A stretch of DNA of 64,000 nt from Arcobacter sp. CECT 8983 (GCF_004118855.1 NZ_PDKF01000004.1:459604-523603), one strand, 5' to 3'; numbered from the stretch's first letter, positions 24,379-42,041 are shown. Numbers and translations: made by a program. Notes: generated by a model not told the origin, from the letters alone.

Positions 24379-25850
24379 TGGCTAAAGTAACAACTATTAT
24401 AGACATTGGGTCAAACTCAATGCGTATGGTTGTTTTAGAAAAGAGTAGTAGATTTTCTTTTAACTTAATTAACGAGACAAAAAGTCGTGTTAAAATTTCT
24501 GAAGGTTGCTATGAAAATAGTGGTAACCTTCAAGAAGCTCCTATGCAAAGAGCTTTTAATTCTTTGCAGTCTTTCTTAAATATTTCTAAAGCACTAAAAT
24601 CAAGAAAAATTATTTGCGTTGCTACATCAGCACTAAGAGATGCACCAAATTCAAAACTTTTTACAAACAAAGTTAAAAATGAATTAGGTCTAAATATTAG
24701 AATTATTGATGGACCTAAAGAAGCTTATTATGGTGGTGTCGCTGCATTAAACTTAATACATGGTCAAGAGTTTGTAACTGTGGACATTGGTGGAGGTTCT
24801 ACTGAGTTTGCATTTATAAAAGATGGACAAATTGTTGACTGTATATCCCTTGATGTAGGAACAGTAAGATTAAATGAACTGTTTTTTTCTAAAGGTGATT
24901 TAGTAGGTGCTAGAAATTATATTTTAGAAAAACTTGAAGAAGTTAAAAATTGTGGTCTTAGTATTCCAAATACTGTTGTTGGTATTGGAGGAAGTATTCG
25001 AGCTCTTAGTAAAATCATAATGAAAAAAACTGAATATCCTTTAGATATCTTACATGGTTTTTCATATATAGTTGATTTAAACTCTTATATTTTTGATGAT
25101 ATTTTAAGGGCTAAGAATAATAACTCTTTAAAATATATTGGTGTAAAAAAAGATAGATATGACACAATAAAAGAGGGTACTTTTATTTTTAAAACTATTC
25201 TAGAAGAGTTAAAAACTACAAGAGTTATTACTTCTGGAGTTGGTGTTAGAGAAGGTGTTTATTTAACTGATATTTTAAGAACTAATAATTGTAAATTTCC
25301 AGCAAACTATAATGTAAGCGTACGAAGTTTGCTTGATAGATTTCAAGTTTGTCCTAAACAAAGTGCTTACTTAGGTAATAATGCAAGACAAATCTTTGAA
25401 GCTTTAAAACCACTTCATAATCTAGATGATAAATATAAAACCCTTTTAGTTATTGCTTCAAAGCTTCATTCAATTGGTACAACACTTAACTTTTATAAAT
25501 CAAATGATAACACTTTTGATTTTATATTAAATGGTTTAAATTATGATTTCTTACACTCTTCAAGAGTAACAGTTGCTCATATGATTAAGTTTTCTAAAAA
25601 AAGACTACCTAAAAAAGAAGACTTACAAAAGTATTCAAAACTATTACCTTGTTTTGAAACTATGCAATGGCTATCTTTTATGATAAGTCTTAATTTAACA
25701 ATTAATCAAGATATGTCTAGTCCAAAAGTAACTTATAAACTTAAAAATGACAGGTTAAAACTATCACTTGAAAGACCTATATATTTAGTAGAAAGTGAAG
25801 TTAAAAAGATTCAAACTCCTAAGGGTGTAAAAGTAAAAGTAGTTTCATGA
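24378..25850 (+). CDS. ppx: Ppx/GppA phosphatase family protein (exopolyphosphatase-like)
   Basis: The 490-residue member of the ASKHA superfamily has TIIDIGSNSMRMVVLE as the phosphate-1 motif (8–23), ATSALRDAPN, then VTVDIGGGSTEFAFIKDGQI as phosphate-2, and VGIGGSIRAL. The C-terminal half has an HD-like helical region (KLHSIGTTLNFY, then FLHSSRVTVAHMIKFS). Members cut terminal phosphate from polyphosphate or ppGpp precursors (pppGpp). The bacterial Ppx length is similar. It starts on the stop of the ferredoxin gene and overlaps waaC by four bases. Confidence 0.9.
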
Positions 25851-26851
25851 AAATAGCTATTGTAAAACTTTCTGCTATGGGTGATATTATTCATGCTATG
25901 GTTGCCTTACAATTTATCAAAAAAGCTAATCCTTCTATACAAATAGATTGGTTTGTTGAAAAAATATTTACAGAAGTATTGGAAAATAATCCTGATATTG
26001 ATAATGTTTTTGCTCTTAATTTAAAATCTATAAAAAAGAAAAAAACAGAATTTTTTTCACAAATTTCAATTATAAGAAAATATTCAAAAAATAGTTATGA
26101 TTTAGTAATTGATGCCCAAGGTCTAATTAAATCAGCAATTGTTTCAAAACTACTTGGAAAAAATAGGGTAGGTTTTAGTAAAACTTCTACTAGAGAGAGT
26201 TTAGCTTCTTCTTTATATAATAAAATTATTGACTCTGATTATTCTAAAAATGTTATTGAAAGAAATTTAGATATTTTATTAAAGCCTTTAGATATAGAGT
26301 TTAATAAAGAGTCTATTTTAAATAAAAGTCCTTTTCTTTTTTTTAAAGAGAGCTTTGATTTTAGTGATATATTAAACAAAGAAAAAAAGAATATATTGCT
26401 TATAGTAGGTGCTAGTTGGCCTTCAAAAATATATTCTAAAGAGAAATTCGCTAAAATAGTACAAAATATAGATGAGAATTTTATTATTGCTTGGGGTAAT
26501 GAAGAAGAAAAAAAAATTGCAGAATTTATTTCAAGTTCTTCAAAGGCTGTTGTTTTACCCAAATTAAGTTTAAATGATTTGAAGTCATTGGTATCAAAAG
26601 TTGATTTACTTATAGGAAATGATACAGGTCCTACTCATATGGCATGGGCTTTAAATATTCCTTCTATAACTATATTTGGTTGTACTCCTGGGTATAGAAA
26701 TACTTATGAAACAGATATAAATAAAATTATTGAATCAAAATCTAAAGTTGATCCTGAAAGATTAAATAAAGAAGATTATTCAATAGAAAAAATAGATGAA
26801 AATGAAATAATAAAAATAGCGAAGGATTTATTGTTTGAAGGCAAACGTTAA
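25847..26851 (+). CDS. waaC: Lipopolysaccharide heptosyltransferase I
   Basis: The 334-residue GT9 protein adds the first L-glycero-D-manno-heptose to Kdo of the LPS inner core. The N-terminal IVKLSAMGDIIHAMVAL with the GD motif is the acceptor site typical of WaaC. The C-terminal half has LIVGASWPSKIYSKEKFAK and the nucleotide-sugar motif LIGNDTGPTHMAWALN. A Trp-Pro-Ser-K region matches other WaaC proteins. It overlaps ppx (ATGA) and htrB (17 bases), part of one tightly packed operon. A cytosolic, membrane-associated enzyme. Confidence 0.93.
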   Translation: MKIAIVKLSAMGDIIHAMVALQFIKKANPSIQIDWFVEKIFTEVLENNPDIDNVFALNLKSIKKKKTEFFSQISIIRKYSKNSYDLVIDAQGLIKSAIVSKLLGKNRVGFSKTSTRESLASSLYNKIIDSDYSKNVIERNLDILLKPLDIEFNKESILNKSPFLFFKESFDFSDILNKEKKNILLIVGASWPSKIYSKEKFAKIVQNIDENFIIAWGNEEEKKIAEFISSSSKAVVLPKLSLNDLKSLVSKVDLLIGNDTGPTHMAWALNIPSITIFGCTPGYRNTYETDINKIIESKSKVDPERLNKEDYSIEKIDENEIIKIAKDLLFEGKR

Positions 26852-27746
26852 GGAATATTTAGTATATTATATATATGTCTTTTTTAAATTTCTTTTTACT
26901 TTTCTTCCTAAAGCTCTTGTAAAACAGATTTTAATTTTATGTGCAAAACTAGCTTTTAGATTTAATAAAGAACATAAACATATTGCAAAAGTGAATTTAG
27001 ATTTAGCTTTTGAAAATACTAAATCTGATGATGAAAAAAATAGTATAATTTATGAGTCATATAAGTCTCTTCTTTTTAATATGTTTGAGTTTGTAGAGAA
27101 TCAAGTTTTATCTAAAGAGGAAATATTATTAAAGGCAAATATTATTAATGCTTCTTATGTAGAAGATGCTATTAAAAAAGGTAAAAAAATTATATTTTTT
27201 ACTGCTCATTATGGTGGATGGGAAATTGCATTACCTCATACAGCACTTAAATTTGGAACACTTGCTGTTGTAAATAGAAAAATGAATAATCCTCTAATTC
27301 AAGATATGTACAAAAAAGCTAGGAATAGAAATAATATCATAATGCTAGATAAAAAGACAGCTGCAAAAGGAATGTTGAAAGCATTAAAACAGAACAATCA
27401 TGTAGCAGTTGTAATTGACCAACACATAAAAGTTGGAGAAGAAATTGAATTCTTTGGAAAAAAAGTAATGGCTACTGATTCAACGTCAAGATTAGCTTTA
27501 AAATTTGATGCAGTACTTGTTCCTCTTTTTTGTGAAATGAATGATTTTAGGGATTATACAATTAAAATAGAAAAACCAATTGATGTAGCTACTTATGAAT
27601 TTAAAACAGATAATAAAATAAAAGAATTAACACAAATACAAAATAATATTATAGAAAATCAGATTAAACATAAACCAGAGCAATGGTTTTGGCAGCATAA
27701 GAGGTTTAAACACCTTTATAATAAATTATATAAAGTAAATACATGA
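26835..27746 (+). CDS. htrB: Lipid A lauroyl/myristoyl acyltransferase (LpxL/HtrB family)
   Basis: The 303-residue inner-membrane acyltransferase has an N-terminal hydrophobic anchor (about 8–34) and the catalytic motif FTAHYGGWEIALPH (H-x4-E type). Following blocks include AVVNRKMNNPLIQDMYKKAR, AVVIDQHIKVGEEIEFFG and a C-terminal PEQWFWQHKRFKHL, all diagnostic of LpxL. It transfers secondary acyl chains to lipid A after WaaC or Kdo addition. The start is TTG, overlapping waaC, with AAGGA eight bases upstream; no ATG is available. It precedes dgkA with a 4-base ATGA overlap. Confidence 0.92.
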   Translation: MKANVKEYLVYYIYVFFKFLFTFLPKALVKQILILCAKLAFRFNKEHKHIAKVNLDLAFENTKSDDEKNSIIYESYKSLLFNMFEFVENQVLSKEEILLKANIINASYVEDAIKKGKKIIFFTAHYGGWEIALPHTALKFGTLAVVNRKMNNPLIQDMYKKARNRNNIIMLDKKTAAKGMLKALKQNNHVAVVIDQHIKVGEEIEFFGKKVMATDSTSRLALKFDAVLVPLFCEMNDFRDYTIKIEKPIDVATYEFKTDNKIKELTQIQNNIIENQIKHKPEQWFWQHKRFKHLYNKLYKVNT

Positions 27747-28099
27747 ATAATAAGCCTAAATATAATATTTTTAAAAATACAAAATATGCTCTAGATGGAT
27801 TTAAACATGCTTTCAATACAGAAAGCTCTTTAAAGTTAGAACTATTATGTGCAATTTTTATTATTATAGCAATAGTGTTAATTGATGTTTCATTGGTATA
27901 TAAACTTGTTCTTTTTGTTACGGGTATTTTGGTTTTGATTGTTGAACTTGTAAATTCTGCAATAGAAAATGTAGTTGACCTTGTAACTAAAGAGTATGAT
28001 CCTTTAGCTAAAATAGCAAAAGATATTGGTTCTACTGCTGTTATGTTTACAATTGTGCTACATATAATTTCATGGATAACAATACTACTGTGGGCATGA
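27743..28099 (+). CDS. dgkA: Diacylglycerol kinase
   Basis: The 118-residue protein has three membrane helices and an N-terminal amphipathic helix. It matches DgkA: an N-terminal TKYALDGFKHAFNTESSLKL, then LVELVNSAIENVVDLVTKE with the active-site Glu and Asp, and a C-terminal AKDIGSTAVMFTIVLH. It phosphorylates diacylglycerol made when phospholipid head groups are used to modify LPS or glucans. That fits its place between lipid A genes and an LTA-synthase-like phosphotransferase (two genes later), whose reaction would release diacylglycerol. Confidence 0.94.
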   Translation: MNNKPKYNIFKNTKYALDGFKHAFNTESSLKLELLCAIFIIIAIVLIDVSLVYKLVLFVTGILVLIVELVNSAIENVVDLVTKEYDPLAKIAKDIGSTAVMFTIVLHIISWITILLWA

Positions 28100-28891: not shown

Positions 28892-30901
28892 ATGAATCAA
28901 ATAGTTATGTCAAATGTACTAAATACATTTAAAAAACTTGTTCTATCAAATTTATTATTTTTATTTTTAATGTCACTTTTTAGAGTAGTGTTTTTTAATT
29001 ATTATTCACCATTAGATAGTTTTAATGGATTTTATTTAGATATTTTAAATACTTTTATTTTAGGTTTACGAATTGATTTGACTGTGATTGGATATATTCA
29101 AGCTATTCCAACAATATTATTAATAATTTTGTATTATATAAAAAAAGAAAAACTATTATACTATTTTGAAAAAATTTTAATTTATTATCTTTTTATTTGT
29201 TTTTTTATAGTGAGTCTTTTTTTATGCGCTGATTTTGGTTTTTATTCATATTTTAAAGAACATATAAATATTTTATTTTTTGGGCTTTTAGATGATGATA
29301 CAAAAGCTTTAATGATAACATTTTGGCAAAATTATAATGTGATACTTATTTTAACTATTTTCGTTTTTTACCTAGCCATTTTATTCTTTTGTATTAAGAA
29401 AATATTTACAATTGAAAATAAAAATTATAATTCTTTTTTAGGATTAAAAGTATCAGCATTAATTTTCTTAATTATATTTATATTAAATTTTTTAGCTATA
29501 AGAGGAACATTAGGAATGTATCCTTTGGGAAAAATGATTCCTAACATTTCTACAAATGAGTTTATAAATAAAGTTTCACATAATGGTTTTAGGGCTTTTA
29601 CAAATGCATTAAGTGCAAGAGAAAAATACTTAAAAAAGAAATATGATTTACTAAAAGTAACTGGATACAAAGGAAACATAGAAAAAGCTTTTGAAGTTTA
29701 TAAGGGTAATAATGAAATCAATAGAAATGATTTATTAAAAAATATTACATACAAAACTAATAAAATCGATGATAAAGAATACAATGTAGTTGTAATTATG
29801 GTAGAGAGCTTTGGAATGCCAATTTTAAAATATCAAAGTAAGAATTTTAATATATTAGGAGAATTAGAAAAACATTTTAAAGAAGACACTCTTCTAACAA
29901 ATTTTATTTCAGCTGGAAATGGTACTATATCAAGTCTGCAAGCACTTCTTTTAAATATACCTCATAGACCTGGTTCTTTTGCTTTTTCTCAATCAATTTA
30001 TAAACAAACTCAGTTTACATATTCTCCTGCTTTTCTTTATAAAAATCAAGGTTATGAAACTAGTTTTATATATGGTGGCGATTTAAGTTGGAGAAGTTTA
30101 GGGCAATTTATTAAACATCAAGGTTATAATAATGTTGAAGGTAAGATAAATATCTTTAATAATTTAGAAAATATTAATAAAGATAAAGATGAATATTTTC
30201 ATCCTTGGGGAATATTTGATGAATATTTATATTCACATATTCTAAAAAAACTTGAAAAAAGTGATAAAAAACAGTTTATAGTAGCACTTAGTACAAATAA
30301 TCACCCTCCATATAATATTCCTAATGACTATGAGTCTAAAAGTTTAATTTTTAATGATGAGCTAAAGAAACATATAACAGGTGATTTTGATTTAGCAAAG
30401 CAAAGATTTAAGTCATATGCTTATGCTGTTGACCAAGTAGGAGTATTTCTTAATAAATTTAAAAAATCTAAATTTAAAGATAATACTATAATTGTAATTA
30501 CTGCTGACAATAATACTATTGATGGAATAATGAAATACGATGAAAATGAAATTCTAAATTCTCGAAATATACCTTTATATTTTTACTTACCAAAGAAGTT
30601 GAAAAATAAATTAAATATTGATACAAAAGTTGCTGGTTCACATAAAGATATTTTTCCTACACTTTATAATTTAACTTTAAATAATCAAGATCATATATCT
30701 ATAGGAAAAGACCTTTTTGATTCTACTTTAACTCATTATGGTTTTAATGGAGCATTAGTTGTAAATTCTAATAAAGAAGCAAAGAAATTTAAAAGTTTAA
30801 GTATAAAAAATGAACCTAGTTTAGAATATTATAAAGCATGCTTAGCAATATCTGAATATTTGGTTAAATACGAATATGAAAAAAGTAAGGAAAATAAATG
30901 A
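28892..30901 (+). CDS. LTA synthase-like phosphoglycerol/phosphoethanolamine transferase
   Basis: The 669-residue inner-membrane protein has five membrane helices (to about residue 205) and a periplasmic sulfatase-fold domain from about 285. Key blocks are VVIMVESFGMPILKY (metal Glu), GNGTISSLQALLLNIP with the nucleophile Thr, YGGDLSWRSLGQF, and STNNHPPYNIP with a metal His, plus VITADNNT as the last metal site. This is the LtaS/OpgB/EptA superfamily layout. In a Gram-negative it probably moves phosphoglycerol or phosphoethanolamine from phospholipid to LPS core or periplasmic glucan. The dgkA gene two places upstream fits recycling of the diacylglycerol by-product (inference). Confidence 0.85.
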   Translation: MNQIVMSNVLNTFKKLVLSNLLFLFLMSLFRVVFFNYYSPLDSFNGFYLDILNTFILGLRIDLTVIGYIQAIPTILLIILYYIKKEKLLYYFEKILIYYLFICFFIVSLFLCADFGFYSYFKEHINILFFGLLDDDTKALMITFWQNYNVILILTIFVFYLAILFFCIKKIFTIENKNYNSFLGLKVSALIFLIIFILNFLAIRGTLGMYPLGKMIPNISTNEFINKVSHNGFRAFTNALSAREKYLKKKYDLLKVTGYKGNIEKAFEVYKGNNEINRNDLLKNITYKTNKIDDKEYNVVVIMVESFGMPILKYQSKNFNILGELEKHFKEDTLLTNFISAGNGTISSLQALLLNIPHRPGSFAFSQSIYKQTQFTYSPAFLYKNQGYETSFIYGGDLSWRSLGQFIKHQGYNNVEGKINIFNNLENINKDKDEYFHPWGIFDEYLYSHILKKLEKSDKKQFIVALSTNNHPPYNIPNDYESKSLIFNDELKKHITGDFDLAKQRFKSYAYAVDQVGVFLNKFKKSKFKDNTIIVITADNNTIDGIMKYDENEILNSRNIPLYFYLPKKLKNKLNIDTKVAGSHKDIFPTLYNLTLNNQDHISIGKDLFDSTLTHYGFNGALVVNSNKEAKKFKSLSIKNEPSLEYYKACLAISEYLVKYEYEKSKENK

Positions 30902-32070
30902 GAATAGCAGTTATTGTAAGAAGCCTTAAATATGGTGGGATGGAAAGAGCAGCCTGTAATCAAGCTGATGCTTTTTATTTATCAGGACATGAAGCTGATT
31001 TAATTTATTTTTCAAATAAACAAAAGCAAATTGAACCTCGCCAAAAAGATGTAAATGTTATACAGATTGATTTAAATAAGAAGATGAGAACTTCAATTGC
31101 TGGTCAAACTTGGGATTTATTTTCTCGATTTATAAATGTATTTTTTAGAAAGTCTTATCCTTTATTAAAAGGTTTTTATACAAGCAAAATATTTAAAAAA
31201 GAGTTTGCAAAATTAGAAAAAGAGAAAAAATATGATTTGATTCTAGTAAGAGGACAAGGTACTTTTGAACAAATTTGGCAATATAAAAATAAAAGAACAG
31301 TAAGAATTTGTGTAAATGTATCAAAAAAAACAAAATCTTCTTTTTTAGATAAAATAATGAGTAAGTGCTATTATGAGAATGTAAGAGTAAATTGTAACTC
31401 AGATGGTTCAAAAGATTTTTATGTAGAAAAATTTAAAAGAGAAAACATTACTCCTTTATCTTTAGACTCAATTAAAAATCCTTTTTTTACAGATAAGGTT
31501 TTATCATTGTCAAAAGAAAAAAATAACAAAATCCCAAAAGAACCTTATATTTTAGGTTTAGGAAGACTTGTAAAAACAAAAAACTTTGAATTATTGATTG
31601 ATAGTTATTTTGAAATGAAAAACAAGTTTAATATTCCTCATAAGTTGGTTATTGTTGGAGATGGTGATGATAAGGAGTTTTTGGAAGAAAAATGCAAGAC
31701 ATTAGATATTGAAAAAGATGTTATATTTGCAGGATATGAAAATAATCCTTACCCATGGATAAAAAACTCAGAAATAATTGCATTTACTTCAAAAAAAGAG
31801 GGGCTTTCAAATGTATTAATTGAAGCTATGTGTTGTAAAACAAGAATCTTAATAACTAAATCACCAGGTGGTATGTTAGAAATGATGCAAGGAAAACTGG
31901 CAGAAAATATTGCAGAAAATGATAAAACTGATATTGCAAATAAAATGAAAAAAATTTTAGATTATGAAAAAGAGTTTTATTTTGATGATTATGAAAAAGC
32001 ACTTTCATTATTTGAACCTTCTCAAATAGTTAATAAGTGGTTAGATATGTATATAAAAAAGGATAAGTGA
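30898..32070 (+). CDS. Glycosyltransferase family 4 protein
   Basis: The 390-residue GT-B enzyme starts with IVRSLKYGGMERAACNQADA (acceptor loop with GG). The donor half has PYILGLGRLVKTKNFELLID, LVIVGDGDDKEFLEEKCK, and FTSKKEGLSNVLIEAMCCKT, which carries the E-x7-E motif (E-G-L-S-N-V-L-I-E). It adds a sugar during LPS core or outer core assembly. The start overlaps the LTA-synthase-like stop by four bases (ATGA) and its stop touches the next start. Sugar donor unknown. Confidence 0.88.
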   Translation: MRIAVIVRSLKYGGMERAACNQADAFYLSGHEADLIYFSNKQKQIEPRQKDVNVIQIDLNKKMRTSIAGQTWDLFSRFINVFFRKSYPLLKGFYTSKIFKKEFAKLEKEKKYDLILVRGQGTFEQIWQYKNKRTVRICVNVSKKTKSSFLDKIMSKCYYENVRVNCNSDGSKDFYVEKFKRENITPLSLDSIKNPFFTDKVLSLSKEKNNKIPKEPYILGLGRLVKTKNFELLIDSYFEMKNKFNIPHKLVIVGDGDDKEFLEEKCKTLDIEKDVIFAGYENNPYPWIKNSEIIAFTSKKEGLSNVLIEAMCCKTRILITKSPGGMLEMMQGKLAENIAENDKTDIANKMKKILDYEKEFYFDDYEKALSLFEPSQIVNKWLDMYIKKDK

Positions 32071-33077
32071 TGTTTAGAGAAATTGATACTTTAAATAAAG
32101 AAAAAAGCTACAATATCTTTATAGTTAGAACACCTTTTCAGCTTATTAATGCATATGAAACAAAGTATTATTTTAAAAAAGAAGATGCTATTTTAATTAT
32201 TATTGATAATGGGGCAGATAATAATAAAAAACAACTAACAAACTTAATCTATGATGGGGTTTGGGATAAAGTTATAAGATTTGGGAATGAAGATAAAAGC
32301 AATTTTTTTAACTATATAAAGATAATAAAAAAGTTAAAAAAAATTAATATTGATTCATTATTTATTGGAAGTGGCTTTAATAAAATGCAGCAAGTTCTAG
32401 TTGCAAATATCAAATCTAAATATACTTGTTTCTTTGATTCTGGAACTAGTACAATGGTTACATACGAAGCTTTTAAAAAAAATAAAATAAACTTTTCATC
32501 ATTAAAAAAACTAAGATTTAACCTATTTGGATTAAAAACTAAAATTGATAAAAAAATAGATTTTTTTACAATGTTTAATTTAAAAGAACTACCCAACCAT
32601 AAAATATTTAAAAATAGATATGAATTTATGAAAAATAAATTTACTGATTCTTCAGATTCAAAATCCAATGAAGTTTATATTATTGGACAAAGGTTTGTAA
32701 CTGCAAATATATTAGAAGAAAAAAAATATATTCAATTTCTAGAAAATGTTTTAGATAAATATAAAAACTATAAAGTTAATTATTTAATGCATAGAAGTGA
32801 AGATAAGAATTATTTGATAAAAAATGGATTAGAAAAAAAGTTAAATATTGTAAATAGTACTATGCCTGGTGAACTTTTCTTTTTATCTTTATCAAATAAA
32901 CCTGATTATATAATAGGTACTGTATCAACCCTAATTACATCATTGAAGTATATTTTTGATGATATATCAATTATTTCATATAAATTTAAAAATGAAGATT
33001 TTAAGAAAAATGGTGATTTATATTTATTAGAGTATGAAAATATGAAAAAAAATAATATTGAGATTGTAGAAATTTAA
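32070..33077 (+). CDS. Sialyltransferase-like protein (GT52/polysialyltransferase-type fold), tentative
   Basis: The 335-residue protein has an N-terminal IFIVRTPFQLINAYETKYYF, the R/S-T-P-F-Q-L motif found in GT52 and polysialyltransferase families. Near the end is IGTVSTLITSLKYIF, in the place of the serine-rich motif that binds CMP-sugars in those families. Between them, LMHRSEDK could replace the usual H-P motif. CMP-sugar use is therefore plausible but not proven. It lies directly before the aldolase/CMP-transferase fusion, which suggests it uses that product. ATG at 32070 follows AAGGATAAG; a GTG three bases earlier is less likely. No membrane segment. Confidence 0.6.
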   Translation: MFREIDTLNKEKSYNIFIVRTPFQLINAYETKYYFKKEDAILIIIDNGADNNKKQLTNLIYDGVWDKVIRFGNEDKSNFFNYIKIIKKLKKINIDSLFIGSGFNKMQQVLVANIKSKYTCFFDSGTSTMVTYEAFKKNKINFSSLKKLRFNLFGLKTKIDKKIDFFTMFNLKELPNHKIFKNRYEFMKNKFTDSSDSKSNEVYIIGQRFVTANILEEKKYIQFLENVLDKYKNYKVNYLMHRSEDKNYLIKNGLEKKLNIVNSTMPGELFFLSLSNKPDYIIGTVSTLITSLKYIFDDISIISYKFKNEDFKKNGDLYLLEYENMKKNNIEIVEI

Positions 33078-33087
33078 AGGATAGGTA

Positions 33088-35394
33088 TTGAATATAAATG
33101 TACTTGACTGCACATTAAGAGATGGTGGTTATATTAATAATTGGAATTTTGAAGATAAAAACATTATTGAAATATTATCATTGCTTGCAAAATCAAATGT
33201 AGATATTTTAGAGTGTGGTTTTTTAGATAAAGATATTGAAAAGAATAGTAATTGTACACGATTTAATAACGTCAATAAAATTGATAAATTACTTGAAAAA
33301 GTAGAAAAACACAATAGTAGTTGCGTTGTAATGGTGGAGCTAGGTAAATTTAACTTAAACAGTTTACCAAATAAAAAAGATGTAAAAATTGATGGAATAA
33401 GATTCTCTTTTAGAAAATCAGATTTAGAAGAGGCATTAGTTCAAATGAAAATCATTGTTGAGAAAGGTTATGAACTTTTCATTCAACCTATCTCTACGAA
33501 TAGCTATTCTGAGCTGGAATTAATTGATCTAATAAAAGAGGCTAATACTTTAAATGCAAAAGCTATATATATTGTAGATACACAAGGCTCAATGTTTAAA
33601 GATGATTTTAGAAGGCTATATTATTTATTTAATGAACATTTAGAAAAAAATATTGCAATAGGGTTTCACTCTCATAACAATATGCAGTTATCATATTCAA
33701 TTGCAATAGATTTTATAGAGATTGCAAGGTATAGAGAGATTATAATAGATTCTTCAATTTATGGTATGGGTAGAGGAGCTGGAAATTTAAATACAGAGTT
33801 ATTAGCTGACTATATAAATAAAAAGATTGAAAACAAATATGAAATTAATTATATACTTGAATTAATAGATAGCTATTTTAATTCACTGTACAAACAAAAT
33901 AATTGGGGCTATTCTTTAGCACACTTTTTATCCGCTTCTTTAGAGTGTCATCCAAACTATGCATCTTTTTTATTGAATAAAAAACATTTAAATATAAATG
34001 AAATAAAAGATATATTACAAGGTATTCCTGATAATGAAAAGTTTGAGTTTAATAAAACAGTAATTGAAAAGATTTATCTTGAGTTTAATAGTAATAAAAG
34101 AATTAAAATAAATGAACCAAACTTAGGAAATAAAAATATACTACTTATTGGTTCAGGAAAAAAATTAAATGAAAAAATAGATTACATAAAAGAGAATTTA
34201 GACAAATATATTATAGTTTCATTAAATCATATTCCAGAAAACCTTGATGTAGACTATGTATTTTTTAATTCAGAAAAAAGATATTATGAATTTAAAGATG
34301 AGTTAAATGGAATAAAGGTAATAACAACTTCAAATTTATCTTTTTCTTTAGATTATGTTATAGATTTTGAAAAAGTATCTTCTTTAGAAGAACATTATAA
34401 TGATAACTCGGCAGTTATGTTTATCAATTATTTATGCCAAATTGGAAAAAAAGAAGTTGAAATTGCTGGTGTTGATGGCTTTGATAAAAATTTAGATAAC
34501 TACAACTATTCTGAATTTGATAAAATTGTAGAAGATAAAGCAATCGATGAGTTGAATGAAAAAATTCTTAGTGGATTAAAAATCTTATCTAAAAAAATAG
34601 ATATTAAGTTTTTGACAAACTCAATTTTTAAATCAAAACTAAAACAAAAAATAGTAGGAGTTATCCCTTCAAGGTTTGCTTCTACAAGGTTACCAGGAAA
34701 ACAATTAGCAGATATTTGTGGCTTACCAATGGTTATTCATGTTTTAAAAAGGGCATTAAAATCAGATATTTTAGATGAAGTAATAGTTGCAACAGATCAT
34801 GAATCAATAGTTAAAGAGGTTGAAAAGTATGGTGGAAGAGCAATATTAACTTCAACAAAACATCAAGATGGAAATGCAAGGATGCATGAAGTTTCAAAAA
34901 CTGTTAATGGTGATATTTTTGTCTTAATAAATGGAGATGAACCTTTATTAGAACCTAAACATATTAAAGAATCAGTAGAAGGTCTTATTAATTCAAAAAG
35001 AGCAGATGCTTCAGTTTTAGTTACTCCATATGAAGAAAGAAATAATACAACAAATTTAAAAATGGTACTTAATAGAAATGATGAAGTTATGTTTATATCA
35101 AGAAGTGATATTCCTTCAGATGCAAGAGAAGAGAAAAAACCTATGTGGAAAGGTTTTTACATAGTTTCATATTGGAAAGAGTTTTTAGATAAGTTTGTTT
35201 TAGAATTTGAAGAAACTGAATTGAATCAAAGAGAAACTACTGATCAAAATAAGATTATTGAATATGGATATGTTTTACAAGCTGTTAAAACGGAAAGTAA
35301 TGCAATAAGTGTTGATACACAAGATGACTTAGAAAAAGTTAGAAAAATGATGGAAAATGATAAAACTTATTTAACTTATAAGGATGAAATTTGA
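33088..35394 (+). CDS. Three-domain fusion: DRE-TIM aldolase, DUF115-like domain, CMP-Kdo-synthetase-like domain
   Basis: This protein has 768 residues. Domain 1 (about 1–285) is an HMGL/4-hydroxy-2-oxovalerate-aldolase-type barrel: VLDCTLRDGGYINNWNF with R and D at the active site, and GFHSHNNMQLSYSIA with the metal His-x-His. Domain 2 (about 345–515) has ILLIGSGKKL, then VDYVFFNSEKRYYEF and INYLCQIGKKEVEIAGVDGF, like DUF115/GT42-type proteins. Domain 3 (about 520–755) is KdsB-like: GVIPSRFASTRLPGKQL, VATDHESI, INGDEPLLEP and ISVDTQDDLEKVR. It could make a 3-deoxy-ulosonic acid by aldol condensation and activate it with CMP. Start is TTG with AAAGG eight bases upstream. The fusion call is firm; the pathway is inference. 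Confidence 0.78.
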   Translation: MNINVLDCTLRDGGYINNWNFEDKNIIEILSLLAKSNVDILECGFLDKDIEKNSNCTRFNNVNKIDKLLEKVEKHNSSCVVMVELGKFNLNSLPNKKDVKIDGIRFSFRKSDLEEALVQMKIIVEKGYELFIQPISTNSYSELELIDLIKEANTLNAKAIYIVDTQGSMFKDDFRRLYYLFNEHLEKNIAIGFHSHNNMQLSYSIAIDFIEIARYREIIIDSSIYGMGRGAGNLNTELLADYINKKIENKYEINYILELIDSYFNSLYKQNNWGYSLAHFLSASLECHPNYASFLLNKKHLNINEIKDILQGIPDNEKFEFNKTVIEKIYLEFNSNKRIKINEPNLGNKNILLIGSGKKLNEKIDYIKENLDKYIIVSLNHIPENLDVDYVFFNSEKRYYEFKDELNGIKVITTSNLSFSLDYVIDFEKVSSLEEHYNDNSAVMFINYLCQIGKKEVEIAGVDGFDKNLDNYNYSEFDKIVEDKAIDELNEKILSGLKILSKKIDIKFLTNSIFKSKLKQKIVGVIPSRFASTRLPGKQLADICGLPMVIHVLKRALKSDILDEVIVATDHESIVKEVEKYGGRAILTSTKHQDGNARMHEVSKTVNGDIFVLINGDEPLLEPKHIKESVEGLINSKRADASVLVTPYEERNNTTNLKMVLNRNDEVMFISRSDIPSDAREEKKPMWKGFYIVSYWKEFLDKFVLEFEETELNQRETTDQNKIIEYGYVLQAVKTESNAISVDTQDDLEKVRKMMENDKTYLTYKDEI

Positions 35395-36017
35395 TTAAAG
35401 TTATTTTCTTTGATTTTGATGGAGTTATTTTAGATTCGATGCCTATAAGAGATTATGGCTTTAGAAAAATATTAGAAGAATATCCACTTGATATTGTTGA
35501 AGATTTTATTAAATTTCATCAAGAAAATGCAGGCTTATCAAGATTTTATAAAATAAAATATTTTTATTCTAAATATTTAAATAAAGATATTAGAGAAGAA
35601 AAAATACAAGAATATGCTACAAAGTTTTCTGAAATAATGAGATCTGAATTGCCTAATGAAAAATATTTAATCTCAGAAACTGTAAGTTTCATCAGAAATA
35701 ATTATAAAAAAATGACTTTTCATATTGTCTCAGGCTCTGAACAAAATGAATTAAGATTTTTATGTGAGCAATTAGGGTTAAGTAAATATTTTAAATCAAT
35801 AGAAGGCTCGCCTACACACAAAAATGATTTGGTAAAAAATATTTTAAATAAAGAAAAATATATATTAGATGAATCAATTTTAATTGGCGATAGTATAAAT
35901 GATTTTAATGCAGCATCTATAAATGGAATAAAGTTTTATGGGTTTAATAACCCAAAGTTGAGATTAAAAGATGAATATTTAAATACAATTTCAGAGTTAG
36001 AGGAAATAGTAAATTGA
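35391..36017 (+). CDS. HAD-superfamily phosphatase
   Basis: The 208-residue enzyme has motif I FFDFDGVILDSM (nucleophile D8 and D10), HIVSGSEQNELRFLCEQL as motif II, a Lys in GSPTHKNDLVKNIL as motif III, and ILIGDSINDFNAA as motif IV. The helical cap is about 17–85, so it is a subclass I beta-phosphoglucomutase-like HAD. It overlaps the fusion gene by four bases (TTGA), and translation coupling is likely. By place it may remove phosphate from an ulosonate phosphate made upstream, like KdsC does for Kdo; that role is inference. Start TTG. Confidence 0.85.
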   Translation: MIKVIFFDFDGVILDSMPIRDYGFRKILEEYPLDIVEDFIKFHQENAGLSRFYKIKYFYSKYLNKDIREEKIQEYATKFSEIMRSELPNEKYLISETVSFIRNNYKKMTFHIVSGSEQNELRFLCEQLGLSKYFKSIEGSPTHKNDLVKNILNKEKYILDESILIGDSINDFNAASINGIKFYGFNNPKLRLKDEYLNTISELEEIVN

Positions 36018-37261
36018 TTAATTATAGTAAAACAAATTGGTTTTTAATGTATGTATATTTTTATATATTCATAACACCTTTGCATTTTTCTAAGTCACAA
36101 TTATCTGTTTCATCATTATTGCTTTTATTACTAGCAATATTTAAGTATAAAAAAACTTTATTAATAAAAATAAAAGAGTATGCTTTTTTTACTCCTATTT
36201 CTCTTTTTTTTGCTTTTATTTTATATATTTATCTAAGCACACTTTGGAGTAATCCTTTTTCAGAGGGCTTAGAACATATAAATACATTTTATAAATATTA
36301 TTTTTTGTTTGTACCTGCAATTTTGGTTTCATTGAATAAAGAGCAAGCAATTATAGGAATAAAAGTATTGATTTTTAGTCTTGGATTTTATTCAATCTAT
36401 TCAATTTTGATTTATTTAGGTTTTTTTAATTCTAAAGTATATGGTTTTCAGTCATCTAATCCTACTGGGCATTTAAGATATTTAATATCAACACAATACA
36501 TGGTTATTGCATTTTTTACAGCTTCATTGTTTTCTTTATATGCTAAAAGTAGTAAAGAAAAGTTAATATTTTTAATTGTTGCACTTTTGTCCTTTTTTGC
36601 ATTATTTATTAATAATAGTAGAACTGCACAGTTGTCATTTCTTTTTATTTTTATTATATTTCTAATAATATCTTTAAAAAAGTATTTATTTAATCTTAAA
36701 CTAATACTTATATTTTTAATAATTGTATCTTCAAGCATCAATTTTTTATATCAAAATAACAAGTTAGATAGGTTTGTAGTAGCTTACAATCAAAGTCAAC
36801 AAGTTTTTTTACAAAATCAATACAATGGTAGTGTAGGAGTAAGGCTTTACTTTAATAAAGCAGGAATTGCAATATTTAAAGATGACCCTCTTTTAGGTAC
36901 TGGACCTAAAGATAATAGAATTATATTACAAGAGATACAAGAAAAAGACCAAAACTATAATTCAAAAATATATAATCATTTTCATAGTGAACATATAGAT
37001 ATATTAACAGCATATGGTATAATTGGATATTTTTTAATATTTTTATCTTTTACAACATTGATTTATAAACTAAAAAAAGAACCATTATATTATTACTTGA
37101 GTTTAGCAGTTTTTCTATGTTTGTTTTTTAATTCTTTTGCAAATAAAACATTATCAGTTAAGCCTTTAAACTATGTATATATTTTGTTCTTTCTACTTTT
37201 TGCTATAATTGCACTAAAATCAATTGATATAAAAAAGGGAAAAATTGAAAATAACAGCTAA
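36014..37261 (+). CDS. waaL: O-antigen ligase family membrane protein
   Basis: The 415-residue hydrophobic protein has about 11 membrane helices and one large periplasmic loop near residues 245–325. That loop holds VGVRLYFNKAGIAIFKDDPL, GTGPKDNR and YNHFHSEHIDILTAYGIIG. The Wzy_C/WaaL pattern (R in the loop, then P-L-x-G-x-G-P and H-x-H/N) joins polymerised O-antigen to lipid A-core. A Wzy polymerase of similar form cannot be fully excluded, but its place among core genes favours ligase. Start is TTG, overlapping the HAD stop, with GAGGA ten bases upstream; a second Met at residue 12 is possible. Confidence 0.82.
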   Translation: MINYSKTNWFLMYVYFYIFITPLHFSKSQLSVSSLLLLLLAIFKYKKTLLIKIKEYAFFTPISLFFAFILYIYLSTLWSNPFSEGLEHINTFYKYYFLFVPAILVSLNKEQAIIGIKVLIFSLGFYSIYSILIYLGFFNSKVYGFQSSNPTGHLRYLISTQYMVIAFFTASLFSLYAKSSKEKLIFLIVALLSFFALFINNSRTAQLSFLFIFIIFLIISLKKYLFNLKLILIFLIIVSSSINFLYQNNKLDRFVVAYNQSQQVFLQNQYNGSVGVRLYFNKAGIAIFKDDPLLGTGPKDNRIILQEIQEKDQNYNSKIYNHFHSEHIDILTAYGIIGYFLIFLSFTTLIYKLKKEPLYYYLSLAVFLCLFFNSFANKTLSVKPLNYVYILFFLLFAIIALKSIDIKKGKIENNS

Positions 37262-39888: not shown

Positions 39889-40829
39889 TGAATCTTCTTA
39901 TTACTAGACATGATAAAATTGGTGATTTTGTTGTAACTTTGCCTTTAATTAAAGCTATAAAAGAACAATATCCAAGAACCAAAATTACAGTATTAGTTAG
40001 TAAAATAAATTTTGATCTTGCAAAAGAGATAGATTTTATAGACGATGTAATTTTATTTGATAAAGATAATTTAAATAAAACATTAGTTGAAATAAAAGAG
40101 AAAAAATTTGATGCTAGTATTAGTGCTTATATAGATACTATTTTAGGAAAACTTCTTTTTAAAAGTGGTATTAAAATTAGAGTTGCTCCTGCTACAAAAA
40201 TAGCACAGATATTCTTTACAAAAAAAATAACCCAAAGAAGAAGTAAAGTAGAAAAAACTGAATGGCAATATAATCTAGATCTAGCAAAAGCAATTTTTCC
40301 TAATATTAGTTTAGATTTCTCAAGACCAGTAATTACAACACATACTTCATATCAAGCAACTAAAAAAAGAGTGATATTGCATCCAGGCTTTGGAGGAAGT
40401 AGTGATGGAAATTTATCTTTAGATGATTATATAAAACTTGCAAGAAAAGCAGCTCAAACTTCATATAAAGTTGTTTTTACTTTCGGACCAGATGATAAAT
40501 CATCAAAAGAGTATATATTTTCAAGACTTACTTCTACTGAAAAAGATAAAGTTGAGCTTTTTGATTCAAAAATACCTTTATTTGAATTTACAAAATATAT
40601 TGCATCTTCTTATCTTTTTATTAGTACTTCTACTGGTCCTATGCATCTTGCAGGGGCAACAAATACTAAGACAATTTCATTTTTCGGTGATTCTTTATTT
40701 GCTAGTTCAAAAAGATGGGCAACAATAAGTGAAGAAGAAAATCAAAATAATTTTATGCTTTCAAGTGAATACTCAAAAGAAAAGTATAAAGAAATAGAAA
40801 ATTGTTTAATGGAACTTTTGCATGAGTGA
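39888..40829 (+). CDS. Glycosyltransferase family 9 (heptosyltransferase-like)
   Basis: The 313-residue protein has the GT9 pattern: LLITRHDKIGDFVVTLPLIK with the GD acceptor motif, then KRVILHPGFGGSSDGNLSLD and the donor motif FISTSTGPMHLAGATNTK. It is similar in form to heptosyltransferase III (WaaQ), which would add a branch heptose. The start is GTG overlapping the previous stop by one base (TAGTG). The C-terminus overlaps the YrbL-like gene by eight bases. The sugar is not certain. Confidence 0.88.
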   Translation: MNLLITRHDKIGDFVVTLPLIKAIKEQYPRTKITVLVSKINFDLAKEIDFIDDVILFDKDNLNKTLVEIKEKKFDASISAYIDTILGKLLFKSGIKIRVAPATKIAQIFFTKKITQRRSKVEKTEWQYNLDLAKAIFPNISLDFSRPVITTHTSYQATKKRVILHPGFGGSSDGNLSLDDYIKLARKAAQTSYKVVFTFGPDDKSSKEYIFSRLTSTEKDKVELFDSKIPLFEFTKYIASSYLFISTSTGPMHLAGATNTKTISFFGDSLFASSKRWATISEEENQNNFMLSSEYSKEKYKEIENCLMELLHE

Positions 40830-41412
40830 GAAAATAGTTTTAAATAAAAAGTATTTTTTAGCAAAAGGTGGTGAAAGAAACTGTTATATTCATCCAAAAG
40901 ATGAAAATAAAGTTATTAAAGTTGTTCATAGAAATGAAAAACACAATGAACAAAATAAGTTAGAATATAAGTATTATAATTTTTTACAGAAAAGAAATAA
41001 GCCTTTAACCCATTTGACTAAATGTTATGGTTTTATAAATACTAATTTAGGTTTGGGATTAATCTACGAAAGACTTAAAGATTATAATAACAATCCATCT
41101 AAGTCTTTTAAATTTTTTTTAGAAGAAAAAATATTTACTAGAGAAGAAGAAGACAAGTTAGTTAGTGAGTTAAAAGACTATTTATTTCAAAATGATATTT
41201 TGTTTATTGATGTAGATTTAAGTAATATTTTTTGTCAAGAGTTTATGGAAAACAAATATAAACTTGTAATAATAGATGGACTAGGTGCAAGAAGATTAAA
41301 TTGGAGATTTTATACATATCTTTATTCTAAGACATTTACTAGATATAAAATAAAAAAACAATGGAAAAAGTTTTTTCAAAACTTTAAAAAGTATAGTACT
41401 TATTATAAATAA
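40822..41412 (+). CDS. YrbL family kinase-fold protein, copy 1
   Basis: The 196-residue protein shows LAKGGERNCYIHPKDENKVI at the N-terminus, KVVHRNEKHNEQNKLEYKYY, LTKCYGFINTNLGLGLIYER and FIDVDLSNIFCQEF. These match the PhoP-regulated YrbL family, which has a protein-kinase-like fold (D-x-D-x-x-N catalytic loop). The C-terminal end is basic. The biochemical role is unknown; in enteric bacteria it responds to Mg2+/envelope signals. It is a tandem paralogue of the next gene, 14 bases away, and the two share the same blocks through most of their length. Confidence 0.85.
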   Translation: MSEKIVLNKKYFLAKGGERNCYIHPKDENKVIKVVHRNEKHNEQNKLEYKYYNFLQKRNKPLTHLTKCYGFINTNLGLGLIYERLKDYNNNPSKSFKFFLEEKIFTREEEDKLVSELKDYLFQNDILFIDVDLSNIFCQEFMENKYKLVIIDGLGARRLNWRFYTYLYSKTFTRYKIKKQWKKFFQNFKKYSTYYK

Positions 41413-41426
41413 AAGGGAAAAATAAG

Positions 41427-42041
41427 TTGAGCTTTATAAATTTAAATAAGAAAAATTATTTAGGTAAAGGTAGAGAACGAGCATGTTATTTACATCCTGA
41501 AGATGATTCAAAGGTAGTAAAAGTAGTTTATAAACCTTTGGAAAATTTAAATCAAAATGAATTAGAGTATGAATATTTAAAATATTTAGAAAAAAAAGAT
41601 ATTCCTTTTTCTCATTTATCAAAATGTTATGGGAAGGTTCATACAAATCTAGGTGAAGGCTACATTTTTGAAAGAATAAAAGATTATAATGGTGAAACTT
41701 CAACATCTTTTAAAAATGTTGTAATGAATGGTCTTCTTTCTTCAAAACTTGAAATTGAACTTTTAAATGAATTAAAAAAATATTTGCATGAAAATAGTAT
41801 TATTTTTGTTGATGTAGCTTTGAGTAATGTATTTTGTCAAAAAATTTCAGAAGATAATTATAAATTAGTTTTAACTGATGGAATAGGTGGAAAAAGAATG
41901 GGGCTTAAATCAAAATTGTATTTATATTCAAAACTTTTCACAAAATATAAAGTAAAAAAACAGTTAAAAAAACTAGACAGTAGATATAAAAAAGTGATTA
42001 AACAAGGAATTGAAGCTAAGACAAGGTTATTAAGTGAATAA
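41427..42041 (+). CDS. YrbL family kinase-fold protein, copy 2
   Basis: The 204-residue paralogue of the preceding protein has LGKGRERACYLHPEDDSKVV, LEYEYLKYLEKKDIPFSHLS, KCYGKVHTNLGEGYIFER and FVDVALSNVFCQKI. The catalytic-loop Asp of D-x-D-x-S-N is Ala here (VDVALSN against VDVDLSN), so this copy may differ in activity. Start is TTG with AAAGGGAAAA upstream. The last eight bases overlap the next gene. The tandem pair was probably made by gene duplication within the LPS cluster. Confidence 0.84.
   Translation: MSFINLNKKNYLGKGRERACYLHPEDDSKVVKVVYKPLENLNQNELEYEYLKYLEKKDIPFSHLSKCYGKVHTNLGEGYIFERIKDYNGETSTSFKNVVMNGLLSSKLEIELLNELKKYLHENSIIFVDVALSNVFCQKISEDNYKLVLTDGIGGKRMGLKSKLYLYSKLFTKYKVKKQLKKLDSRYKKVIKQGIEAKTRLLSE

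Follow-up and report, generated by a model that had tools for sequence, protein, structure and literature searches.

The window analyzed here, a stretch of 64,000 nucleotides from Arcobacter sp. CECT 8983, includes an LOS/LPS core locus, recognized as such by the presence of genes for a heptosyltransferase, a lipid A acyltransferase, and a diacylglycerol kinase (Table 1). A three-domain fusion protein is encoded in this locus among closely spaced genes on the same strand; its frame is open throughout all 768 residues, and the sequence AAAGG lies seven bases 5' of the start codon. The first-pass annotation had described a single protein joining an aldolase, a middle domain, and a cytidylyltransferase (CT), overlapped at its end by four bases of a HAD phosphatase gene and adjacent to a gene with sialyltransferase-like motifs. 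All three statements are borne out: the fusion by the open reading frame, Pfam, and AlphaFold models; the phosphatase by its coordinates and its match to HAD_2 (E 2.3e-16, Pfam), together with the motifs DFDG, SGS, and GDSINDF; and the neighbor, located directly before the fusion, by a match of residues 16–305 to PF07388 (E 4.4e-9, 36.8 bits, above the gathering cut-off of 23.3). Two tandem YrbL-like proteins (window positions 40822–41412 and 41427–42041), about 50% alike judging from cross-matches of their relatives, are also present in the LOS locus.

Table 1. Features of the fusion locus, with positions counted from the first nucleotide of the window
Feature	Position	Strand	Basis
Heptosyltransferase, lipid A acyltransferase, and diacylglycerol kinase genes	25847..28099	+	Context, LOS/LPS core locus
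GT4-type glycosyltransferase, conserved LOS-core gene, upstream	30898..32070	+	Pfam, relatives
PF07388 (polysialyltransferase-like) protein, predicted CMP-sugar transferase	32067..33077	+	Pfam
Three-domain fusion, 768 aa, TTG start	33088..35394	+	ORF, Pfam, AlphaFold model and structure search
DRE-TIM (HMGL-like) aldolase domain, residues 1–300	33088..33987	+	Profile, conserved residues, nearest solved structure 3dxi
Maf/MptE (DUF115)-like domain, residues 338–518	34099..34641	+	Conserved residues, predicted structure
KdsB-like cytidylyltransferase (CT), residues 520–757 (520–759 with Pfam and NCBIfam)	34645..35358	+	Profiles, structure match, residues
HAD phosphatase, 208 aa, 4-base overlap with the end of the fusion	35391..36017	+	HAD_2, motifs
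O-antigen-ligase/Wzy_C-type protein, next gene of the LOS locus	36014..37261	+	Pfam

Domains of the fusion protein

In profile searches, the matches at both ends of the protein are clear, with HMGL-like covering residues 3–245 (E 7.5e-14, Pfam; 2–262 with Pfam and NCBIfam) and CTP_transf_3 covering residues 524–722 (E 1.4e-38, Pfam), and the MptE-like match between them (PF01973, residues 344–381, E 0.0098, 16.1 bits) is below the Pfam gathering cut-off of 34.6. The AlphaFold model of the whole fusion has a mean pLDDT of 90.6 and matches 3dxi, the N-terminal domain of a putative aldolase (TM by target 0.79), as well as the structures of KpsU and KdsB (TM by target 0.91–0.93).

The metal-ligand positions of the aldolase domain, Asp12, His194, and His196, are intact, and these residues and the neighboring Arg11 are invariant across an alignment of 86 relatives. 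The top matches of this domain are 4-hydroxy-2-oxovalerate aldolases, ranking above Claisen enzymes, with scores of 67.9 bits for TIGR03217 (cut-off 286) and 77.7 bits for PRK08195 (cut-off 229). In the fusion, the histidine of the RDGxH motif, which is presumably catalytic in 4-hydroxy-2-oxovalerate aldolases, is replaced by Tyr15. On account of this substitution, the domain is not a member of that family, although it may work in a similar manner; the acid/base differs, and so could the reaction. A search for an assayed member of this particular aldolase family found none, which counts against the interpretation proposed below. The genome also encodes a second, unfused DRE-TIM protein of 324 residues (L002:1429–2403) that scores far under the 4-hydroxy-2-oxovalerate aldolase cut-off, and similar unfused matches are found in many relatives.

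For the middle domain, modelled by AlphaFold at a mean pLDDT of 92.5, the closest PDB entry is 5mu5, a Maf glycosyltransferase (E 7.9e-4; probability 1.0; a TM by query of only 0.56). ST8SiaIII ranks 17th (E 0.06), which makes the earlier label “DUF115/GT42-like” a fair one. The central domain of Maf resembles the sialyltransferase Cst-II (PMC11339370). Residues conserved in the middle domain are Gly357, Asn380, Phe392, Arg398, Asn416, Gly461, Asp463, Gly464, and Thr510. Since this domain is kept in relatives, including loci with a ThDP enzyme, that have no CT, it probably goes with the aldolase step rather than with CMP transfer, and a role as the transferase of the CMP-sugar is not favored. 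We can speculate that it probably serves the aldolase side, as a kinase, in substrate binding, or in channelling.

The CT domain scores 199 bits against the broad subfamily model NF003952, above its cut-off of 193, and 141.4 bits against the KdsB equivalog TIGR00466, below its cut-off of 155.2; the free KdsB of the same genome reaches 250.7 bits with the latter model. Residues of the CTP loop and those involved in Mg binding in the KdsB of A. aeolicus are Pro8, Arg10, Thr14, Arg15, Lys19, Arg76, Asp95, and Asp219 (PMC3149649). Their equivalents are kept in the CT of the window and in all of the module CTs that were compared, with either Ser or Thr at the position of Thr14. The motifs QGDEP, KHVGIY, and LEQLR of the sugar pocket of KdsB/KpsU, positions that we take to have a role in Kdo binding, become NGDEP, KGFYIV, and TDQNK in the CT of the window and vary among the module CTs, which suggests, but does not prove, that different sugars are activated. 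Elsewhere in the genome are found kdsA (C4:434485), a kdsB above the equivalog cut-off (C24), and a NeuB (C7:65808). The first-pass annotation had allowed that the fusion might simply serve Kdo synthesis if the genome had no other kdsB; with its own kdsA and kdsB present, the fusion is not needed for Kdo. The genome contains a NeuB-type synthase in a 636-residue frame with a long C-terminal extension (L128:412–2322), adjoined by a 452-residue protein resembling CBS-GHMP kinase (L128:2298–3656).

Recurrence of the fusion in related genomes

The same fusion, which the first-pass annotation had proposed looking for in other genomes, is complete in 8 of 150 relatives (the window genome included), all eight of which carry a close homologue of the HAD, compared with 19 of 150 overall (hypergeometric 1.4e-8). 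The fusion is thus not a chance arrangement, and its open reading frame is real rather than an artifact. Similarly, all seven genomes with a close homologue of the PF07388 protein (E < 1e-50, a threshold picked afterwards) also have the HAD (1.7e-7), and in all 12 genomes whose match to the aldolase half is strong (E < 1e-50) a CT is either fused or no more than one gene away.

The partners in this arrangement are exchanged. In G068 and G072, the slot of the LOS locus between the genes for PF07388 (71% identity to that of the window) and HAD (67%) is occupied by a NeuA-like CT and an HMGL-MptE aldolase that is not fused to it. The PF07388 and HAD genes of G006 and G055 adjoin each other, and a fusion with the other CT type is found at another place in that locus. 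The fused CT domains form two separated groups in the tree, one near free KdsB and the other near the CTs of split modules; a single clade of fused CTs is rejected (AU p 6.6e-7), so that fused CTs originated at least twice. In addition, the type of CT switches many times across the aldolase tree. Repeated fusion, combined with the exchange of partners, argues for a functional link between the aldolase and the CT.

Distribution of the aldolase–middle module

The module consisting of the aldolase and middle domains is widespread, well beyond the single locus in which it was first seen. When the GTDB genome collection was scanned with a pattern, at least 592 stretches matched; the best 80 loci, which were examined, belong to several phyla, mainly Bacillota, but also Bacteroidota, Spirochaetota, and Verrucomicrobiota, as well as archaea. 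Among 87 loci with aldolase and middle domains, a CT is fused or located within 2.5 kb in 66, and a ThDP enzyme is found within 10 kb in 13, never together with a CT (Fisher 2e-10). HADs are near only 44 of the 87 loci, which weighs against the pathway proposed below, and PfkB kinases are near five, all of them without HAD (p 0.026). A sialyltransferase-like glycosyltransferase accompanies 29 of the 66 loci with a CT, compared with 2 of the 21 others (p 0.004).

As the list of 80 was ranked by a query containing the CT and is biased towards loci with a CT, an even draw of 291 genomes from the class of G152 was searched with the aldolase and middle domains only and read from 1.5-kb flanks only. 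The module was present in 22 of the 291 genomes, in 23 loci. A KdsB- or NeuA-type CT is found within the flanks in 10 of these loci and an IspD/TarI-type CT is fused in three (counts that are our reading of the table, whose CT total of 11 takes in one of the IspD-type fusions). A ThDP enzyme is present in eight loci, one of which (L164) has a CT as well, and three loci lack both. The picture is similar to that given by the 87 loci.

Of the 23 genomes with the module and a CT, 18, their completeness being unreported, have no KdsA above its cut-off and no NeuB above 100 bits; weaker hits of the KdsA and NeuB models mostly coincide in position, as DAHP-synthase-type proteins would. Proteocatella sphenisci and Pseudogracilibacillus auburnensis carry the module, and neither KdsA nor NeuB exceeds these thresholds in them. 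Distant or split matches only were found in plasmids, including neighboring genes for an aldolase and KdsB in Leisingera, and a search of phages gave matches to single domains only. An IMG/VR contig (L046), which may be host DNA, carries a split module with a NeuA-like CT and a KDG-kinase-like gene.

Exchange of partners and the nature of the product

Four kinds of partner of the module suggest that its product is a 2-keto-3-deoxy sugar acid. One fusion (L158:1159–3456), which adjoins a NeuA-like CT, carries at the C terminus of its aldolase and middle domains a phosphatase of the KdsC family (TIGR01670, 109.8 bits, cut-off 106.95). The PfkB neighbors of the module resemble KDG/KDGal kinases. 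In G024 and G110, CTs that are sister to the fused-CT clade of the window are located directly behind an HpcH/HpaI aldolase related to GarL/RhmA, in clusters that also hold a HAD of the family found in the window; the arrangement is comparable in G127 and G101, and yet another CT (in L133) adjoins an HpcH/HpaI aldolase. Finally, the acid could be the donor in the loci with a ThDP enzyme, since 2-oxo acids are the donors in known ThDP routes to branched sugars.

A second candidate cluster for CMP-ulosonates (L129, L130, L131, L133, and L139) comprises an HpcH/HpaI aldolase, a CT, a D-2-hydroxyacid dehydrogenase, an epimerase, a cyclase-type protein, and a HAD; no CT was seen in L139, which begins at the end of a contig. 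In a number of loci (L105, L108, L109, L114, L116, L121, L124, and others), the protein with the aldolase and middle domains has an acetolactate-synthase-like ThDP enzyme as its neighbor, and RfbH/RfbF are often present as well.

The loci with ThDP enzymes, together with three fusions in which a CT of the IspD/TarI (ribitol-5-phosphate) type is attached at the N terminus of the aldolase (L159:1486–3276, L160:760–2508, and L162:1471–3225), show that the use of the aldolase is not confined to CMP-ulosonates. RfbH is present in eight and RfbF in seven of the 13 ThDP loci (a CDP-3,6-dideoxy-sugar route), and a route to branched sugars from the same 2-oxo acid is possible there.

Proposed pathway and alternative interpretations

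In the known pathways to Kdo and to sialic-acid-like sugars, the acid is made by a PEP-dependent synthase. We consider it probable (roughly 0.7) that the fusion and the adjacent HAD constitute a route to a CMP-activated 3-deoxy-2-ulosonic acid that does without such an enzyme. The metal-dependent DRE-TIM domain would replace KdsA or NeuB, condensing a sugar aldehyde, which would probably be an aldose phosphate, with pyruvate to give the phosphate of a 4-hydroxy-2-oxo (3-deoxy-ulosonic) acid. The HAD would take off the phosphate in a role like that of KdsC, the KdsB-like domain would join the acid to CMP, and the PF07388 protein would move the acid of the CMP-sugar onto the LOS core. This order, put forward in the first-pass annotation, agrees best with the comparisons across genomes. 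Neither of the two findings that the annotation had named as refuting it was made: the metal-ligand positions of the aldolase and the CTP and Mg residues of the CT are intact, and the genome has another kdsB, as well as a kdsA. Pointing the same way are the fusion to a KdsC-family phosphatase, the KDG-kinase-like neighbors, the exchange with HpcH/HpaI aldolases, and the lack of KdsA and NeuB in 18 of the 23 genomes. The architecture, the intact key residues, the recurrence and partner exchange of the module, and the lack of KdsA and NeuB in most of the CT-bearing genomes examined are computational results; the individual reactions, their order, and the sugar are inferred.

An extra CMP-Kdo synthetase, comparable to KpsU beside KdsB and fused to an aldolase unrelated to it in function, would agree with KdsB being the nearest solved family and with the NF003952 score. 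Such an arrangement is nevertheless very unlikely, as the genome has its own kdsA and a kdsB well above the TIGR00466 cut-off that the fused CT fails to reach, the sugar pocket of the latter is altered, the module occurs with a KdsB-like CT in Bacillota genomes that have no KdsA, and the CT of other loci is NeuA-like instead; additional supply of CMP-Kdo was therefore set aside as the main reading. We regard it as highly improbable, too, that the 2-oxo acid is made as a carbon donor for a ThDP carboligase (leading to branched sugars by a yersiniose-like logic) or for some other purpose, with the CT sharing the locus merely by the habit of polysaccharide clusters. A scan of window genes around the fusion shows no ThDP enzyme, ThDP enzymes and CTs exclude each other in the 87 loci (L164 of the second sample being the one exception), and two independent lineages have the CT joined to the aldolase in one protein. 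The acetolactate-synthase-like enzymes of the 13 loci, eight of which carry RfbH and seven RfbF, more likely put the same 2-oxo acid chemistry to a second use.

The TIM domain might instead catalyze another DRE-TIM reaction, either an acetyl-CoA Claisen-type condensation or a retro-aldol cleavage, or the CT might activate a phosphonate or an alditol phosphate. In favor of this, the HMGL-like family takes in isopropylmalate and homocitrate synthases, a ribitol-5-phosphate-type CT is fused in three relatives, and the aldolase histidine is replaced by tyrosine. We find it very unlikely, since 4-hydroxy-2-oxovalerate aldolases match better than Claisen enzymes and since the HpcH/HpaI exchange, the KDG-kinase-like neighbors, and the KdsC-family fusion all point to 2-keto-3-deoxy acids. 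Activation of a phosphonate was rejected because a motif scan of the window and the loci found no PEP mutase.

A more general proposal, which we hold at even odds, is that CMP-ulosonic acids have, besides the PEP-dependent Kdo and NeuB routes, a third general route, in which the acid comes from a pyruvate aldolase of the DRE-TIM type that carries a Maf-like domain and is spread through Bacillota, Bacteroidota, Spirochaetota, Campylobacterota, and archaea. Bacteria that have neither KdsA nor NeuB could thereby display a variety of 3-deoxy-ulosonic acids on the cell surface, different sugars being obtained by swapping the CT, phosphatase, and kinase, and in a ThDP branch the same acid would go into branched sugars. 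Genomes are usually screened for such sugars via KdsA or NeuB; if the proposal is true, many bacteria scored as being without them, including gut Clostridia, can make them, and a common aldolase family gains a function. It could also explain unusual ulosonic acids of unexplained biosynthesis and offers a candidate aldolase for making them. The pathway is apparently undescribed, a provisional assessment in that no paper on it was found in the open-licence text of PMC, which omits most subscription journals.

Comparison with known systems

The aldolase domain shares its DRE-TIM fold and metal ligands with DmpG/BphI and with BVU_2661 (3dxi), the latter being the nearest structure and deposited without an assigned function. 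It differs from DmpG/BphI in scoring far below the cut-offs of that family, in having Tyr in place of the RDGxH histidine, and in its biosynthetic context. The middle domain has a fold in common with Maf/MptE (PF01973), with 5mu5 as the best match, but it comprises only ~180 residues, is sub-cut-off in Pfam, and is placed behind this aldolase. The HpcH/HpaI aldolases of the GarL and RhmA type occupy an equivalent position beside related CTs and HADs (L129–L131, L133), although they belong to an unrelated sequence family and their clusters add a 2-hydroxyacid dehydrogenase, an epimerase, and a cyclase.

With the NeuB–NeuA pathways to sialic, legionaminic, and pseudaminic acids the proposed route would share a CMP-activated ulosonic acid; about one third of the module loci have a NeuA-like CT, and sialyltransferase-like transferases are found nearby, yet no NeuB adjoins the module of the window, nor is one present in most of the CT-bearing genomes examined. 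The Kdo pathway (KdsA–KdsC–KdsB) would follow a like logic, with a C3 donor and an aldose phosphate, a phosphatase, and activation by CMP; the CT of the fusion has the KdsB fold, and one relative of the module bears a phosphatase of the KdsC family. In the fusion, however, a DRE-TIM aldolase stands in the place of the PEP-dependent KdsA, the phosphatase of the window is of the HAD_2 type, and the CT has an altered KdsB sugar pocket, with kdsA and kdsB encoded separately in the same genome.
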